A DNA stretch of 64,000 nucleotides from Streptomyces sp. HPF1205 (GTDB lineage Bacteria; Actinomycetota; Actinomycetes; Streptomycetales; Streptomycetaceae): contig NZ_JAINVH010000018.1 in assembly GCF_020400825.1 (NCBI RefSeq), positions 1 through 64,000 on the forward strand, in the 5' to 3' direction. Below, piece after piece: positions 17,501 through 33,008 of the stretch (position 1 is its first letter; each line of letters starts with the position of its first letter). The notes under the pieces were generated by a model. The model was not told the origin of the DNA. It made no database searches and saw only the letters and a list, made by a program, of their open reading frames with translations. Both the position numbers and the translations under genes were made by a program.

Positions 17501-18028
17501 TCAGAAGAGCGGAGCCGGGAGCACCCCCTCCAGCGCGAGCAGCTGCCGCTTGATCTCCAAGCCGCCGCCGAAGCCGCCTATCCCGCCGCCGGACTCGATC
17601 ACACGGTGGCAGGGCACGACCACGGGCAGCGGGTTGGACGCCATCGCGACACCGACCGCCCGCGCCGCGCCCGGCTCGCCCACCCGGTCGGCGAGGTCCT
17701 GGTAGCCCACCACGCTCCCGTACGGGACGCCGTCCGCCAGCTCGCGCAGCACCCGCCGGTTGAAGCCGGTGACCAGCGACCAGTCGAGCGGCAGGTCGAA
17801 GGTACGCAGCTCCCCGTCGAAGTAGGCGTCGAGCTGCCGGGTCACCGGATCGAGGCGCGCGCCGTCCTCGACCGGCACGCGGCCCAGCCGCCGCCCCATC
17901 GACTCCACGGCCCGGGCCGCGGTCGCCGGATCGGCACGGAAACACACCAGGACGAGCCCCTCGTCGGTCCCGGCCACCAGCAGCGGCCCGATCGGGGTGT
18001 CCCGCACCGTCCACACAGCGTTCGTCAC
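17501..18028 (-). CDS. ogt: O6-methylguanine-DNA methyltransferase
   Basis: 175 aa suicide alkyltransferase that moves methyl groups from O6-methylguanine to its own cysteine. The C-terminal domain has the catalytic VVVPCHRVI with Cys140, the helix-wing region [20 protein letters not shown] and the GGFGGG loop before the last helices. The N-terminal half is the usual non-catalytic fold, without Ada's phosphotriester domain. GTG start at 18028 lies six bases after a near-perfect damage-type -10, so the mRNA is probably leaderless. Divergent from uvrB. Confidence 0.95.
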
Positions 18029-18034
18029 GTTCCC

Positions 18035-18057
18035 ACGCTAGCGCCGGCCACCGACAA
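18035..18057 (-). promoter_or_regulatory. DNA-damage (PafBC-type) promoter of ogt
   Basis: Read on the minus strand: TTGTCGGTG (18057-18049), eight bases, TAGCGT (18040-18035). This fits the RecA-independent damage promoter TTGTCRGTG-N8-TANNNT at every defined position. Six bases separate it from the GTG start. Confidence 0.8.
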
Positions 18058-18130
18058 CGGGCCCGGGCCCGCCCCTCGCACCCGCCCCCCGGCCCGCCCG
18101 CGCCCCCGCCGCGGCAGCGGCGCGGCGCGG

Positions 18131-18153
18131 TTGTCAGTGGGTGGTCGTACGGT
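18131..18153 (+). promoter_or_regulatory. DNA-damage (PafBC-type) promoter of uvrB
   Basis: TTGTCAGTG (18131-18139), eight bases, TACGGT (18148-18153): a full match to TTGTCRGTG-N8-TANNNT. The ATG begins eight bases after the end of the -10, so transcription should start at or next to the A of ATG. Confidence 0.85.
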
Positions 18154-18160
18154 GGGTGTC

Positions 18161-20257
18161 ATGCGGCCCGTATCAGACATCGAACGCACCGTGGCGCCCT
18201 TCGAGGTCGTCAGCCCCTACCGGCCCAGCGGCGACCAGCCGACGGCCATCGACGACCTGGAGAAGCGCGTCCGCGCCGGTGAGCGGGACGTGGTGCTGCT
18301 CGGTGCGACGGGCACGGGCAAGTCGGCCACCACCGCGTGGATGATCGAGCGGCTCCAGCGCCCGACGCTCGTCATGGCGCCGAACAAGACACTCGCCGCC
18401 CAGCTGGCCAACGAGTTCCGCGAGCTGCTGCCGAACAACGCGGTCGAGTACTTCGTGTCGTACTACGACTACTACCAGCCGGAGGCGTACGTCCCGCAGA
18501 CGGACACCTACATCGAGAAGGACTCCTCGATCAACGAGGAGGTGGAGCGGCTGCGCCACTCCGCGACCAACTCGCTGCTCACCCGGCGTGACGTGGTCGT
18601 GGTCGCCTCCGTCTCGTGCATCTACGGCCTGGGCACCCCCCAGGAGTACATCGACCGCATGGTGCGGCTCAACGTGGGCGACGTGATCGACCGCGACCAG
18701 CTCCTGCGCAAGTTCGTCGACATCCAGTACACGCGCAACGACCTGGCCTTCACCCGCGGCACCTTCCGGGTCCGCGGCGACACCGTGGAGATCTTCCCGG
18801 TGTACGAGGAGCTGGCCGTCCGCATCGAGATGTTCGGCGACGAGATCGAGGCCCTCTACACCCTCCACCCGCTCACCGGCGAGGTGATCACCGAGGACCG
18901 GCAGATCTACGTCTTCCCCGCGAGCCACTACGTGGCGGGACCCGAGCGGATGGAGCGGGCCATCACCGGCATCGAGAAGGAGCTGGAGGAGCAGCTCGCG
19001 CTGCTGGAGAAGCAGGGCAAGCTGCTGGAGGCCCAGCGGCTGCGGATGCGCACCACGTACGACATCGAGATGATGCGGCAGATCGGCACCTGCTCCGGCA
19101 TCGAGAACTACTCGCGGCACATCGACGGCCGCGGCCCCGGCTCCGCCCCCGACACCCTCATCGACTACTTCCCCGAGGACTTCCTGCTGGTCATCGACGA
19201 GTCGCACGTCACCGTGCCGCAGATCGGCGCGATGTACGAGGGGGACGCGTCCCGCAAGCGCACCCTGGTCGACCACGGCTTCCGGCTGCCGTCCGCGCTG
19301 GACAACCGCCCGCTGAAGTGGGAGGAGTTCCTGGAGCGGGTCGGCCAGACCGTCTACCTGTCCGCGACCCCGGGGGCGTACGAGCTGTCGCGCGGCGACG
19401 GTGTCGTCGAGCAGATCATCCGCCCCACCGGGCTGGTCGACCCCGAGGTCGTGGTCAAACCCACCGAGGGCCAGATCGACGACCTGGTGCACGAGATCCG
19501 GCTGCGCACCGAGAAGGACGAACGCGTCCTGGTCACCACCCTCACCAAGAAGATGGCCGAGGACCTGACCGACTACCTGCTGGAACTCGGCATCCAGGTG
19601 CGGTACCTGCACAGCGACATCGACACCCTGCGCCGGGTCGAGCTGCTGCAGGAGCTGCGCGCGGGCGAGTTCGACGTCCTGGTCGGCATCAACCTGCTGC
19701 GCGAGGGCCTCGACCTGCCCGAGGTGTCGCTGGTCGCGATCCTCGACGCCGACAAGGAGGGCTTCCTGCGGTCGGGCACGTCGCTGATCCAGACCATCGG
19801 CCGCGCCGCCCGCAACGTGTCCGGCCAGGTCCACATGTACGCCGACCGGATCACCCCCGCCATGGCCAAGGCCATCGACGAGACCAACCGCCGCCGCGCC
19901 AAGCAGATCGCCTACAACACCGCCAACGGCATCGACCCGCAGCCGCTGCGCAAGAAGATCGCCGGCATCATCGACTACATCGTTCGCGAGGAGGCCGACA
20001 CCGAGGAGCTGCTGGGTTCCGGCCGGCAGCGCTCCCGCGGCAAGGCCCCCGTGCCCGGCCTGTCCGGCCGGGCCGGCGAGAAGCGGGAGGCCGCGTCACT
20101 GCCGGCCGAGGAGCTCACCGCCCTGATCGGCCAGCTCACCGAGCAGATGCAAGCGGCCGCCGCCGAGCTGAAGTTCGAGGTCGCCGCCAGGATGAGGGAC
20201 GAACTGCACGAGCTGAAGAAGGAGTTGCGGCAGATGCGGGAGGCCGGCATCGCCTGA
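18161..20257 (+). CDS. uvrB: UvrABC system protein B
   Basis: 698 aa damage-recognition helicase of nucleotide excision repair. Walker A GATGTGKS (48-55), the beta-hairpin [20 protein letters not shown] that threads between DNA strands, VIDESHVT (motif II), LSATPG, and the C-terminal [20 protein letters not shown] and [10 protein letters not shown] motifs are intact. A UVR domain ends the protein ([20 protein letters not shown]) and binds UvrC. ATG at 18161 fits both the conserved N-terminus and the leaderless promoter. The stop codon lies in a 14-bp tandem repeat. Confidence 0.98.
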
Positions 20258-27200: not shown

Positions 27201-30113
27201 GTGGCCGACCGACTCACCGTCCGTGGCGCTCGCGAGCACAATCTCAAGAACGTCTCGCTGGACCTGCCTCGTGACTCGCTCATCGTGTTCACCGGGCTGT
27301 CCGGCTCCGGCAAGTCCTCCCTCGCCTTCGACACCATCTTCGCCGAGGGCCAGCGCCGCTACGTGGAGTCACTGTCCTCCTACGCCCGGCAGTTCCTGGG
27401 ACAGATGGACAAGCCCGACGTGGACTTCATCGAGGGCCTGTCGCCCGCCGTGTCCATCGACCAGAAGTCCACCTCCCGCAACCCGCGCTCCACCGTGGGC
27501 ACCATCACGGAGGTCTACGACTACCTGCGGCTGCTGTTCGCGCGCATCGGCAAGCCGCACTGCCCGCAGTGCGGCCGGCCCATCTCCCGGCAGTCCCCGC
27601 AGGCCATCGTGGACCGGGTGCTGGAGCTGGAGGAGGGCAGCCGCTTCCAGGTGCTGTCGCCGCTGGTGCGCGAGCGCAAGGGCGAGTTCGTGGACCTGTT
27701 CGCCGACCTGCAGACCAAGGGCTACAGCCGGGCCCGGGTGGACGGCGCCACGATCCAGCTCACCAGCCCGCCCAAGCTGAAGAAGCAGGAGAAGCACACC
27801 ATCGAGGTGGTCGTCGACCGCCTCACCGTCAAGGACTCCGCCAAGCGCCGGCTCACCGACTCGGTGGAGACCGCGCTCGGGCTGTCCGGCGGCATGGTCA
27901 TCCTCGACTTCGTGGACCTCCCCGAGGACGACCCGCAGCGCGAGCGGATGTTCTCCGAGCACCTGTACTGCCCGTACGACGACCTGTCCTTCGAGGAGCT
28001 GGAGCCGCGCTCCTTCTCGTTCAACTCGCCCTTCGGCGCCTGCCCGGACTGCACCGGCATCGGCTCGCGCATGGAGGTCGACCCCGAGCTGATCGTCCCC
28101 GACGAGCAGAAGTCGCTGGCCGAAGGGGCCATCGCGCCCTGGAACGGCGGGATGTCCAAGGGCTACTTCGACCGGCTGGTCGAGGGCCTGGCCGCCGAGC
28201 TGGGCTTCCGCACCGACATCCCGTTCGCGGGCCTGCCCGCCCGGGCCAGGAAGGCGCTGCTGTACGGGCACAAGTCCGAGGTCCGCGTCGCGTACAAGAA
28301 CCGGTACGGCCGCGAGCGGGTCTACAACGCGCAGTTCGAGGGCGCCATCCCGTTCGTCAGGCGCCGCCACCAGGACTCCGAGAGCGACTCCAGCCGGGAG
28401 CGCTTCGAGGGCTACATGCGCGAGGTGCCCTGCCCGACGTGCCGCGGCGCCCGGCTCAAGCCGGTGGTCCTGGCGGTCACCGTGCAGGACAGGTCCATCG
28501 CCGAGGTCTCCGCGATGTCGATCAGCGACTGCGCGGAGTTCCTGGGCGGCATGAAGCTGGACGCCCGCGACAAGAAGATCGCCGAGCGGGTGCTCAAGGA
28601 GGTCAACGAGCGGCTGAGGTTCCTGGTCGACGTCGGCCTCGACTACCTCTCGCTCAACCGCGCGGCCGGCACCCTGTCCGGCGGCGAGGCCCAGCGCATC
28701 CGGCTGGCCACCCAGATCGGCTCCGGCCTGGTCGGCGTGCTGTACGTGCTGGACGAGCCCTCCATCGGCCTGCACCAGCGGGACAACCACCGGCTGATCG
28801 AGACCCTGGTGCGGCTGCGCGACCTGGGCAACACCCTGATCGTGGTGGAGCACGACGAGGACACCATCAAGACCGCCGACTGGGTGGTCGACATCGGCCC
28901 CGGCGCGGGCGAGCACGGCGGCAAGGTGGTCCACTCCGGCTCGCTGAAGGAGCTGCTGGCCAACGAGGAGTCGCTGACCGGCCAGTACCTGGCGGGCAAG
29001 CGGTCCATCCCCACCCCGCCGGCCCGCCGGCCCGCCGACCCCAAGCGGCGGCTGACCGTCCACGGCGCCCGGGAGAACAACCTGCGGGACATCGACGTGT
29101 CCTTCCCGCTGGGCGTGCTCACCGCCGTCACCGGCGTCTCGGGCTCCGGCAAGTCGACCCTGGTCAACGACATCCTGTACACCCACCTCGCCCGGGAGCT
29201 GAACGGCGCGCGCAGCGTGCCCGGCCGCCACACCCGCGTCGACGGCGACGACCTGGTGGACAAGGTCGTGCACGTCGACCAGTCGCCGATCGGCCGCACC
29301 CCGCGGTCGAACCCGGCCACGTACACCGGCGTCTTCGACAACATCCGCAAGCTGTTCGCCGAGACCATGGAGGCCAAGGTCCGCGGCTACCTGCCCGGCC
29401 GGTTCTCCTTCAACGTCAAGGGCGGCCGCTGCGAGAACTGCGCGGGCGACGGCACCATCAAGATCGAGATGAACTTCCTGCCGGACGTGTACGTGCCGTG
29501 CGAGGTCTGCCACGGCGCCCGGTACAACCGGGAGACGCTGGAGGTGCACTACAAGGGCAAGTCCATCGCCGAGGTGCTGGACATGCCGATCGAGGAGGCG
29601 CTGGACTTCTTCGAGGCGGTGCCCACCATCGCCCGCCACCTGCGCACCCTGAACGAGGTCGGCCTGGGGTACGTGCGGCTCGGGCAGTCCGCGCCCACCC
29701 TGTCCGGCGGCGAGGCACAGCGGGTCAAGCTCGCCTCCGAGCTGCAGAAGCGCTCCACCGGCCGCACGGTCTACGTCCTGGACGAGCCGACCACCGGTCT
29801 GCACTTCGAGGACATCAGCAAGCTGATCAAGGTGCTGGCCGGGCTGGTCGAGAAGGGCAACACGGTGATCGTCATCGAGCACAACCTCGATGTGATCAAG
29901 ACCGCCGACTGGGTGATCGACATGGGTCCCGAGGGCGGGAGCGGCGGTGGCCTGGTCGTCGCCGAGGGCACCCCGGAGCAGATCGCGGGCATCCCGGCCA
30001 GCCACACCGGCAAGTTCCTGCGCGACATCCTCGGCCCGGACGCGGTCAGTGACGCGGCGGTGCCGGCCCCGCGCAAGAAGGCGGCGGCCAGGAAGCGGGC
30101 GGCGAAGGCGTGA
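27201..30113 (+). CDS. uvrA: UvrABC system protein A
   Basis: 970 aa ABC-type ATPase that scans DNA for lesions and loads UvrB. First ATPase: Walker [10 protein letters not shown] (32-40) and [14 protein letters not shown]. Second: [12 protein letters not shown] and [15 protein letters not shown] with LDEPTTGLH. Zinc modules: CPQCGRPI in the first half, [11 protein letters not shown], and [13 protein letters not shown] with [10 protein letters not shown] in the second. The GTG at 27201 is placed by the conserved N-terminus ([18 protein letters not shown]) and AAAGGTG upstream. Unlike uvrB and uvrC, it has no TTGTC-type damage promoter that I can find. Confidence 0.98.
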
Positions 30114-30806: not shown

Positions 30807-30829
30807 TTGTCACATCCCGCCAGTAGGGT
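30807..30829 (+). promoter_or_regulatory. Probable damage-type promoter of uvrC
   Basis: TTGTCA (30807-30812) and TAGGGT (30824-30829) are 11 bp apart, exactly as in the TTGTCRGTG-N8-TANNNT pattern, although the GTG part of the left box is CAT here. The ATG starts eight bases after the -10, as at uvrB. Confidence 0.55.
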
Positions 30830-30836
30830 GGGAGCC

Positions 30837-33008
30837 ATGGCGGACCCCAGCACCTACCGACCGAAGCCGGGCCAGATCCCCGACTCCCCCGGGGTCTACA
30901 AGTTCCGGGACGAGCACGGCCGGGTGATCTACGTCGGCAAGGCGAAGAGCCTGCGCCAGCGCCTGTCCTCGTACTTCCAGGACATCGCGAACCTGCACCA
31001 GCGCACCGCCACCATGGTCACCACGGCCGCCTCGGTGGAGTGGACCGTGGTGTCGACCGAGGTCGAGGCGCTGCAGCTCGAATACTCGTGGATCAAGGAG
31101 TTCGACCCGCGGTTCAATGTCAAGTACCGCGACGACAAGAGCTATCCGTCGCTGGCGGTCACCATGAACGAGGAGTTCCCGCGCGTCCAGGTGATGCGCG
31201 GCCCCAAGCGCAAGGGCGTGCGCTACTTCGGTCCCTACGCCCACGCGTGGGCGATCCGCGAGACCGTCGACCTGCTGCTGCGGGTGTTTCCCGTGCGGAC
31301 CTGCTCCGCCGGTGTGTTCAAGCGCTCCGCCCAGATCGGCCGGCCCTGCCTGCTCGGCTACATCGGCAAGTGCTCGGCGCCCTGCGTGGGCCGGATCAGC
31401 GCCGAGGACCACCGCGAACTCGCCGAGGAGTTCAGCGACTTCATGGCCGGCCACACCGGCACCTACCTGCGCCGCCTGGAACAGCGGATGAAGGACGCGG
31501 CCGCCGCCATGGAGTACGAGCAGGCGGCCCGGCTGCGCGACGACATCGAGGCGCTGCGCCGCGCCATGGAGAAGAACGCGGTGGTGCTCGCCGACGCCAC
31601 CGACGCCGACCTGATCGCCGTCGCCGAGGACGAACTCGAAGCGGCCGTGCAGATCTTCCACGTCCGCGGCGGCCGGGTGCGCGGCCAGCGCGGCTGGGTC
31701 ACCGACAAGGTCGAGGCCGTGGACACCGCGGGCCTGGTCGAGCACGCCCTCCAGCAGCTGTACGGGGAGGAGAGCGGCGACGCCGAGCAGTCCGGCGGCA
31801 GCGGCGGCGTGCCCAAGGAGGTCCTGGTACCGGCCCTGCCCGAACCCGCCGCCCCGCTGGTCCAGTGGCTCGGCGAGCGGCGCGGCTCGGCGGTCAGCCT
31901 GCGGGTGCCGCAGCGCGGCGACAAGAAGGACCTGATGGCCACCGTGCAGCGCAACGCCCAGCAGGCCCTCGCGCTGCACAAGACCAAGCGGGCCTCGGAC
32001 CTGACGACCCGTTCGCGCGCCCTGGAGGAGATCGCGACCGCCCTCGACCTCGACACCGCCCCGCTGCGCATCGAGTGCTACGACATCAGCCACCTCCAGG
32101 GCGACGACGTCGTGGCGTCCATGGTCGTCTTCGAGGACGGCCTGGCCCGCAAGAGCGAGTACCGCCGCTTCCAGATCAAGTCGTTCGCCGGGCAGGACGA
32201 CGTCCGCGCCATGCACGAGGTCGTCTCCCGCCGCTTCCGCCGCTACCTGCAGGAAAAGCAGCGCACGAGCGAATGGGAGGCGCCGGACGGCTCCTCCGGC
32301 CCTTCCGGTGCCTCCGGCCGATCCGGCGCGCCGGACGAAGCGGAGGCGATCGGGGCGACGGCGGGGCCGGACCTGGCGGCGGAGCCTGACGGCGAGGTCG
32401 GCGGGCCGGACAACGAGGCGGTCGGCGGGCCGATCGACCCCGACACCGGCCGTCCCCGCAAGTTCGCCTACCCGCCGCAGCTCGTCGTGGTGGACGGCGG
32501 CCGGCCCCAGGTCGCCGCCGCCTGCCGCGCGCTGGCGGACCTGGGCATAGACGACGTCGCCGTGTGCGGCCTGGCCAAGCGGCTGGAGGAGGTGTGGCTG
32601 CCCGGCCAGGACGACCCGGTGATCCTGCCCCGCACCAGCGAGGGCCTCTACCTGCTGCAGCGGGTGCGCGACGAGGCGCACCGGTTCGCGATCACCTACC
32701 AGCGCGGCAAGCGGTCCAAGTCGATGAAGGCGGGCGCGCTGGACGCCGTGCCCGGCCTCGGCGAGACCCGCAGGCAGGCACTGCTCAAGCACTTCGGCTC
32801 GCTCAAGCGGCTGCGCGGGGCGACCGTCGACCAGATCTGCGAGGTCCCCGGCATCGGCCGCCGCACCGCGGAGACGGTCGCCGCGGCGCTCGCCGCCGCC
32901 GCACCGGCCGCGCCGGCGGTGAACACCGCGACCGGGGAGATCATAGAAGAGGAGCCCCGGATTCCGCCCGGGGCGGTCAGGCCGGACCATCGGGGGAAGA
33001 GCACATGA
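30837..33008 (+). CDS. uvrC: UvrABC system protein C
   Basis: 723 aa dual-incision nuclease of excision repair. GIY-YIG domain at the N-terminus ([20 protein letters not shown]), Cys-rich segment ([20 protein letters not shown]), UVR domain for UvrB ([20 protein letters not shown]), RNase H-like C-terminal nuclease ([21 protein letters not shown]) and a helix-hairpin-helix pair ([20 protein letters not shown]). Between nuclease halves (about 475-545) lies a Ser/Gly/Ala/Asp-rich insert of some 65 residues, longer than usual. ATG at 30837 fits the promoter and conserved start; its last codon overlaps rapZ. Confidence 0.97.

Follow-up and report, generated by a model that had tools for sequence, protein, structure and literature searches.

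Two DNA repair genes, ogt and uvrB, diverge from a short intergenic gap in the DNA stretch analysed here (64 kb, referred to as the window), and this arrangement raises the question of whether both are transcribed from DNA-damage promoters, whether their mRNAs are leaderless and whether the gap acts on them as one control region. The window corresponds to contig C89 in a genome of 8.4 Mb, the genus of which is represented by a set of 34 genomes, this one included, that is most likely Actinacidiphila in GTDB, family Streptomycetaceae. The ogt gene (17501–18028, minus strand) encodes an O6-methylguanine-DNA methyltransferase of 175 aa (Pfam PF01035, 1.7e-29, and PF02870, 1e-12; TIGR00589, 2e-28) with a GTG start at 18028, a start backed by aligning the window's sequence with 10 orthologues, since residue 6 is W in all 11. 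The uvrB gene (18161–20257, plus strand) begins with the ATG at 18161 and encodes excinuclease ABC subunit B of 698 aa, identified through Pfam and TIGR00631 (1074 bits). The two start codons are separated by 132 bases (18029–18160), and re-measurement thus returned the gap size given in an earlier note on this DNA.

The sites in this gap resemble the RecA-NDp promoter, the consensus of which is TTGTCRGTG-N8-TANNNT. The ogt promoter (18035–18057, minus strand) consists of TTGTCGGTG (18057–18049), N8 and the -10 box TAGCGT (18040–18035), and the uvrB promoter (18131–18153, plus strand) of TTGTCAGTG (18131–18139), N8 and the -10 box TACGGT (18148–18153); on re-reading, all defined motif positions proved exact to the base. 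The sites lie on opposite strands with 73 bases between them and are the only two matches to the consensus in the window, against none in 100 dinucleotide shuffles. As the note had stated, and as can be read directly, the -10 boxes end six bases (18029–18034, minus strand) before the GTG of ogt and seven bases (18154–18160, plus strand) before the ATG of uvrB, and transcription of ogt would be expected to start at or adjoining its start codon.

Two conventional explanations bear on these observations. In many bacteria the uvr genes belong to the SOS response, and ogt and uvrB might both be under LexA control with the motif being incidental, but no LexA-like box (GAAC-N4-GTTC with up to one mismatch) was found in the gap (18029–18160), and a damage motif that is both conserved and precisely placed makes this reading very improbable. 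It is just as improbable that these are ordinary constitutive housekeeping promoters beside a chance TTGTC. In S. coelicolor, leaderless mRNAs account for approximately 21% of the measured primary starts and come from ordinary-looking promoters (PMC4895711), but a simple consensus scan found no sigma-70-like -35/-10 pair in 17900–18300, none of the 100 shuffles produced the motif, and the motif is conserved across genera.

Scanning whole genomes with the strict pattern, TTGTCRGTG-N8-TANNNT, and with the reversed pattern as control placed the two sites in a genome-wide set. There are 21 strict sites in the window's own genome against none for the reversed pattern, and they precede recA, ruvC, rpsF and the genes for uracil-DNA glycosylase, a PD-(D/E)XK nuclease and a bifunctional exonuclease/polymerase as well as ogt and uvrB. 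Others precede genes with no evident repair role (moaA, DUF4241, DUF6928, GNAT, DUF2797 and SWIM) or reading frames with no family match, and one site (L014) has no clear gene behind it. Four frames at leaderless distance behind strict sites (L001, L010, L011 and L017) belong to no Pfam family and are candidates for unknown damage-response proteins, though the short ones are perhaps not genes. Across the genus, 583 strict sites were found in the 34 genomes (6 to 31 each; control 4), and a second Streptomycetaceae genus of 12 genomes, here called g2 and presumably Streptomyces, holds 294 (10 to 40 each; control 2). Membership of the ogt and uvrB sites in this set, together with the comparison across genomes, backs the assignment to the PafBC-type (RecA-NDp) class. 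Among 148 sampled genomes of the class, 110 carry at least one strict site and 38 carry none, and the control gave 18 matches in 16 genomes, so that the strict count says little in families with 0 to 3 sites per genome. The idea that the strict motif had caused the regulon to be missed was dropped, as the strict motif does find it. In one genome of family f17 (G168), which has 63 strict matches, the site TTGTCGGTGCCCGCCCGTAGGGT recurs many times in identical form and perhaps marks a multicopy gene family or a mobile element.

The spacing between the -10 box and the start codon, called the gap length below, was scored for the start codon pattern RTG, and at single loci gap lengths of 5 to 9 were tried in rising order and the first in-frame start codon was taken. 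The uvrB gene is preceded by TGTC-N12-TANNNT in all 34 genomes of the genus, with the ATG at gap length 6 in 26 and 7 in eight; the promoter has the GTG form (TGTCRGTG) in 27 of them and is a near-variant in the other 7. All 22 ogt loci read in the genus set likewise have an in-frame RTG at gap length 6 or 7. Among 80 named ogt loci, which are the best 80 of 512 relatives, include 14 from genomes of the 34-genome set and contain no S. venezuelae record, 78 have the start codon at gap length 6 or 7 (65 with the GTG form, 11 with an ACC form described below and 2 with other forms), and the two exceptions, L254 and L291, have no such site.

The same spacing is enriched beyond these two genes. For a collection of 121 distinct sites, comprising the own genome, one locus per further genus genome and the sets of G001, G004, G007 and G008, an ATG occurs at gap length 7 in 29 and at 6 in 11, and at each of the other gap lengths up to 36 in 0 to 3, except for 6 at gap length 9. 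An RTG at gap lengths 5–9 with a 60-codon open frame was exhibited by 66 of the 121 sites, which include orthologues and are not independent; the five-base control classes from 10 to 29 held 8, 11, 10 and 10, and those from 30 to 54 held 16, 24, 36, 20 and 14, a range in which genes with leaders may start. In the own genome, 11 of the 21 strict sites have an RTG at gap lengths 6–8, two of which (L010 and L017) precede short frames without a family, and the other 10 have none, so leaderless placement is common and not universal. Conservation gene by gene is the strongest evidence for the placement, and the promoter class and predicted leaderless placement of ogt and uvrB are well supported by comparison. 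Of the earlier suggestion of leaderless mRNAs, the spacing has therefore gained support through its conservation across loci, and the mRNA start itself stands as a prediction. If the placement is true, translation of these repair proteins would proceed with no Shine-Dalgarno leader, a feature of possible relevance under translation stress.

A third gene of the window exhibits the same architecture in relaxed form. The relaxed rule (TGTC-N12-TANNNT, RTG at gap lengths 5–9 and 100 open codons) gives exactly three matches in the window, which are uvrB, ogt and uvrC, and none of the other 255 tetramers in place of TGTC gives more than two. The uvrC site (30807–30829, plus strand), TTGTCACATCCCGCCAGTAGGGT, ends seven bases before the ATG at 30837 of the gene for excinuclease ABC subunit C (30837–33008, plus strand; NF001824, 1125 bits). 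Strings like the uvrC site (TGTCRYATCCCGC), found by string alone, are listed in G023, G026 and G027. No TGTC-N12-TANNNT site was found at leaderless distance before uvrA (GTG at 27201), which means that this promoter type does not extend to every excinuclease gene. At recA, 15 of 27 sites (L002 and loci L344–L372) have a GTG in frame at six or seven bases past the -10 box, and these 15 come from the own genome, three g2 genomes and eleven genomes of family f16; if used, this GTG would give a leaderless RecA with an N-terminus longer than that made from the usual ATG.

The ogt loci of the genus revealed a second form of the element. Where ogt was read beside uvrB, TGTC-N-KACC replaces TGTCRGTG in 20 of 22 loci, the GTG form being present in the window's genome and in G009, and five further genus genomes with ogt elsewhere have the GTG form, which brings the genus total to 20 ACC and 7 GTG among 27 scored. 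The pattern TGTCRKACCC-N5-CTANNNT matched 144 times in 32 of the 34 genus genomes (control 0) and at least once in 74 of the 148 class genomes (control 1). Genes behind ACC-form sites include xthA, radA, ogt and a macrodomain gene. The macrodomain protein has no assigned Pfam family and matches structure 5e3b at 2e-65, which we take to be SCO6735. An RTG at gap lengths 5–9 with an open frame follows 26 of 50 ACC-form sites, against 2 to 7 in the control classes; the proportion is 20 of 30 in the genus versus 6 of 20 elsewhere in the class, and by the latter count the leaderless rule is weaker outside the family.

The two forms alternate at several genes. The xthA gene is present in all 34 genus genomes, and the 30 loci read comprise 23 with the ACC form, 5 with the GTG form and 2 with another, all at gap length 6–7. 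The macrodomain gene was matched in 18 pieces from 16 genomes, and its 16 readable starts divide into 11 GTG, 3 GAG variants and 2 ACC (L196 and L205). For recA, 29 loci from 30 chosen genomes gave 12 GTG, 12 ACC and 2 other forms and 3 without a site within 250 bases; the GTG form was found in Streptomycetaceae and families f4, f15, f17 and f22, and the ACC form in all 11 loci of family f16 and in one of f13. On a DNA tree built from a single gene, uvrB, at least three changes of form fall on ogt and at least one on xthA, and the window's genome groups as sister to a genome with the ACC form (support 92/87).

A search for TGTC, the -10 box and an ATG at gap length 6–7 only returned 294 matches in 9 genomes against 10 for a control that does not preserve how often leaderless -10 boxes occur, and some of the 294 will therefore have arisen by chance. 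Among 88 rows of this search, from three genomes, 35 are of the GTG form, 15 KACC, 7 GCG and 31 other. The two middle bases are coupled (36 TG, 7 TC, 3 AG and 18 AC; Fisher p 1e-7), with the p value overstating the evidence since the rows include orthologues. On balance, we lean slightly towards a RecA-NDp/PafBC promoter of Actinomycetes that comes in two exchangeable forms, TGTCR-GTG and TGTC-N-KACC, which have TGTC and the -10 box in common, within Streptomycetaceae the leaderless spacing as well, and have been swapped at recA, ogt, xthA and the macrodomain gene; either one PafBC would read both mainly via TGTC or a second reader would have taken over part of the regulon, and the damage regulon of Streptomycetaceae would be largely leaderless. 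The ogt-uvrB pair itself belongs to the known promoter type; any novelty may lie in the second form and its exchange with the first, and exchangeable half-sites offer a simple handle on what PafB reads.

The earlier note had further proposed that one shared region controls ogt and uvrB together, and this proposal fared poorly. That the divergent region is one control unit, with the promoters helping or hindering each other, is suggested by the 73-base distance between sites on opposite strands, by a short divergent gap (66–214 bp) kept in 20 of the 34 genus genomes, the own included, and by comparable back-to-back strict pairs listed in other families (G059:C1:1907155-1907240, G053:C49:3927-4322 and G070:C46:39011-39400). 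However, the length of the gap varies over that whole range, and the close pair is absent from the other 14 genus genomes, where the distance is 1.2–1.3 kb in two, the genes are in tandem in one and no ogt lies within 1.5 kb in eleven. In G033 (L049), ogt is located upstream of uvrB on the same strand and is not divergent. Among the 80 named ogt loci (best 80 of 512 relatives), only 10 form a close pair (<300 bp), and 63 of the 73 Streptomyces-named loci among them have the GTG-form ogt promoter with uvrB not within 300 bp. The ACC form is present at ogt in 20 of 27 scored genus genomes and at uvrB in none of 34 loci, so the two promoters evolved separately, with the switches of ogt on the uvrB tree pointing the same way. 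A single control unit is consequently an improbable reading, and the two genes most likely became neighbours by accident. Co-regulation of ogt and uvrB would instead come about through membership of one regulon with recA, ruvC and others, and not through a shared promoter region.

The candidate reader of the element is encoded in the same genome. Both PafB and PafC are present and match the solved PafBC chains 7p5x, 9fnd (M. smegmatis) and 6sj9, and their genes lie in the order pafA-pafB-pafC-tatA-tatC, in which pafA is the Pup ligase gene; two FKBP-type genes, named by eye from the translations, are also found in this locus. With E values of 1e-25 or better, PafB was detected in 144 of the 148 class genomes, too widespread for its presence alongside the motif to be informative. 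The stretch MFERDK..LR in the N-terminal domain of PafB is invariant in 17 sequences (including two fragments), among them sequences from lineages with ACC-form recA, and it would lie in the recognition helix, going by the description in PMC6789036. This invariance favours one reader that would see mainly TGTC.

An unlikely, though not negligible, alternative is that these are indeed leaderless damage promoters with the -26 element read by another activator, such as another WYL protein, in place of PafBC. The genome has three further WYL matches besides PafB and PafC, the coupled downstream halves (TG versus AC, Fisher p 1e-7 over rows that include orthologues) could mean two readers, and PMC9380542 calls PafBC function in Streptomyces open. 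Against this stand the presence of the same element at recA, the published bearer of the RecA-NDp promoter, and the invariant MFERDK..LR of PafB even where recA has the ACC form.

What is observed at these loci is a set of sequences that are enriched, conserved and fixed in their spacing, in a genome that contains pafBC. The probable explanation is that the ogt and uvrB sites are RecA-NDp promoters independent of each other, from which housekeeping RNA polymerase together with PafBC produces leaderless mRNAs upon damage. By analogy with M. smegmatis we infer where transcription starts, which contacts are made and that expression depends on PafBC and is induced by damage; in this picture the helix-turn-helix of PafB would contact the TGTC element near -26, PafC would hold sigma region 4 in replacement of the -35 contact, and sigma would recognise the TANNNT -10 box. 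Transcription would then begin six or seven bases past the -10 box, at the start codon or one base before it. Damage would thereby lead through single-stranded DNA to active PafBC, with ogt and uvrB made as leaderless mRNAs.

Known systems offer several points of comparison. The RecA-NDp promoter of recA was reportedly described by Ahel in 2002 for S. rimosus and by Gamulin in 2004 for M. tuberculosis; ogt and uvrB share its consensus and, like it, have repair genes downstream, whereas here two copies stand back to back, both at leaderless spacing. No paper treating the Streptomyces ogt and uvrB promoters together with DNA damage was found among the open-licence papers searched. In S. coelicolor, SCO6735 and recA carry the RecA-NDp promoter and UV induces SCO6735 about 5-fold, as given in PMC5087735. 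The SCO6735 macrodomain promoter of that report is thus of the same type and from Streptomyces, and the 16 readable loci of SCO6735-related genes found here share the 6–7 base spacing, but it is a single promoter, unlike the back-to-back pair of ogt and uvrB.

In M. smegmatis, PafBC acts by sigma adaptation, with the helix-turn-helix of PafB on the -26 motif that it reads, as set out in PMC11804915, in the text of which the word 'leaderless' does not occur. Homologues of PafB and PafC are present here, but that mechanism was demonstrated with mycobacterial proteins, and its operation in Streptomycetaceae is a prediction. A 2022 study of S. venezuelae (PMC9380542) remarks that, judging from a first search, the PafBC motif of M. 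smegmatis does not seem to be conserved there and that a PafBC-type response is still to be demonstrated in Streptomyces. Taken over the whole family, the present strict-site counts, from a sample to which S. venezuelae does not belong, speak against this remark, and the occurrence of strict sites in all 34 genus genomes and all 12 g2 genomes makes the question of that study directly testable. Finally, the S. coelicolor leaderless mRNAs of PMC4895711 have the start codon at the transcription start, as predicted here for ogt and uvrB, and the measured share of about 21% of primary starts compares with the predicted 11 of 21 strict sites with an RTG at gap lengths 6–8 in the own genome (binomial p 0.0015, for a predicted against a measured proportion).
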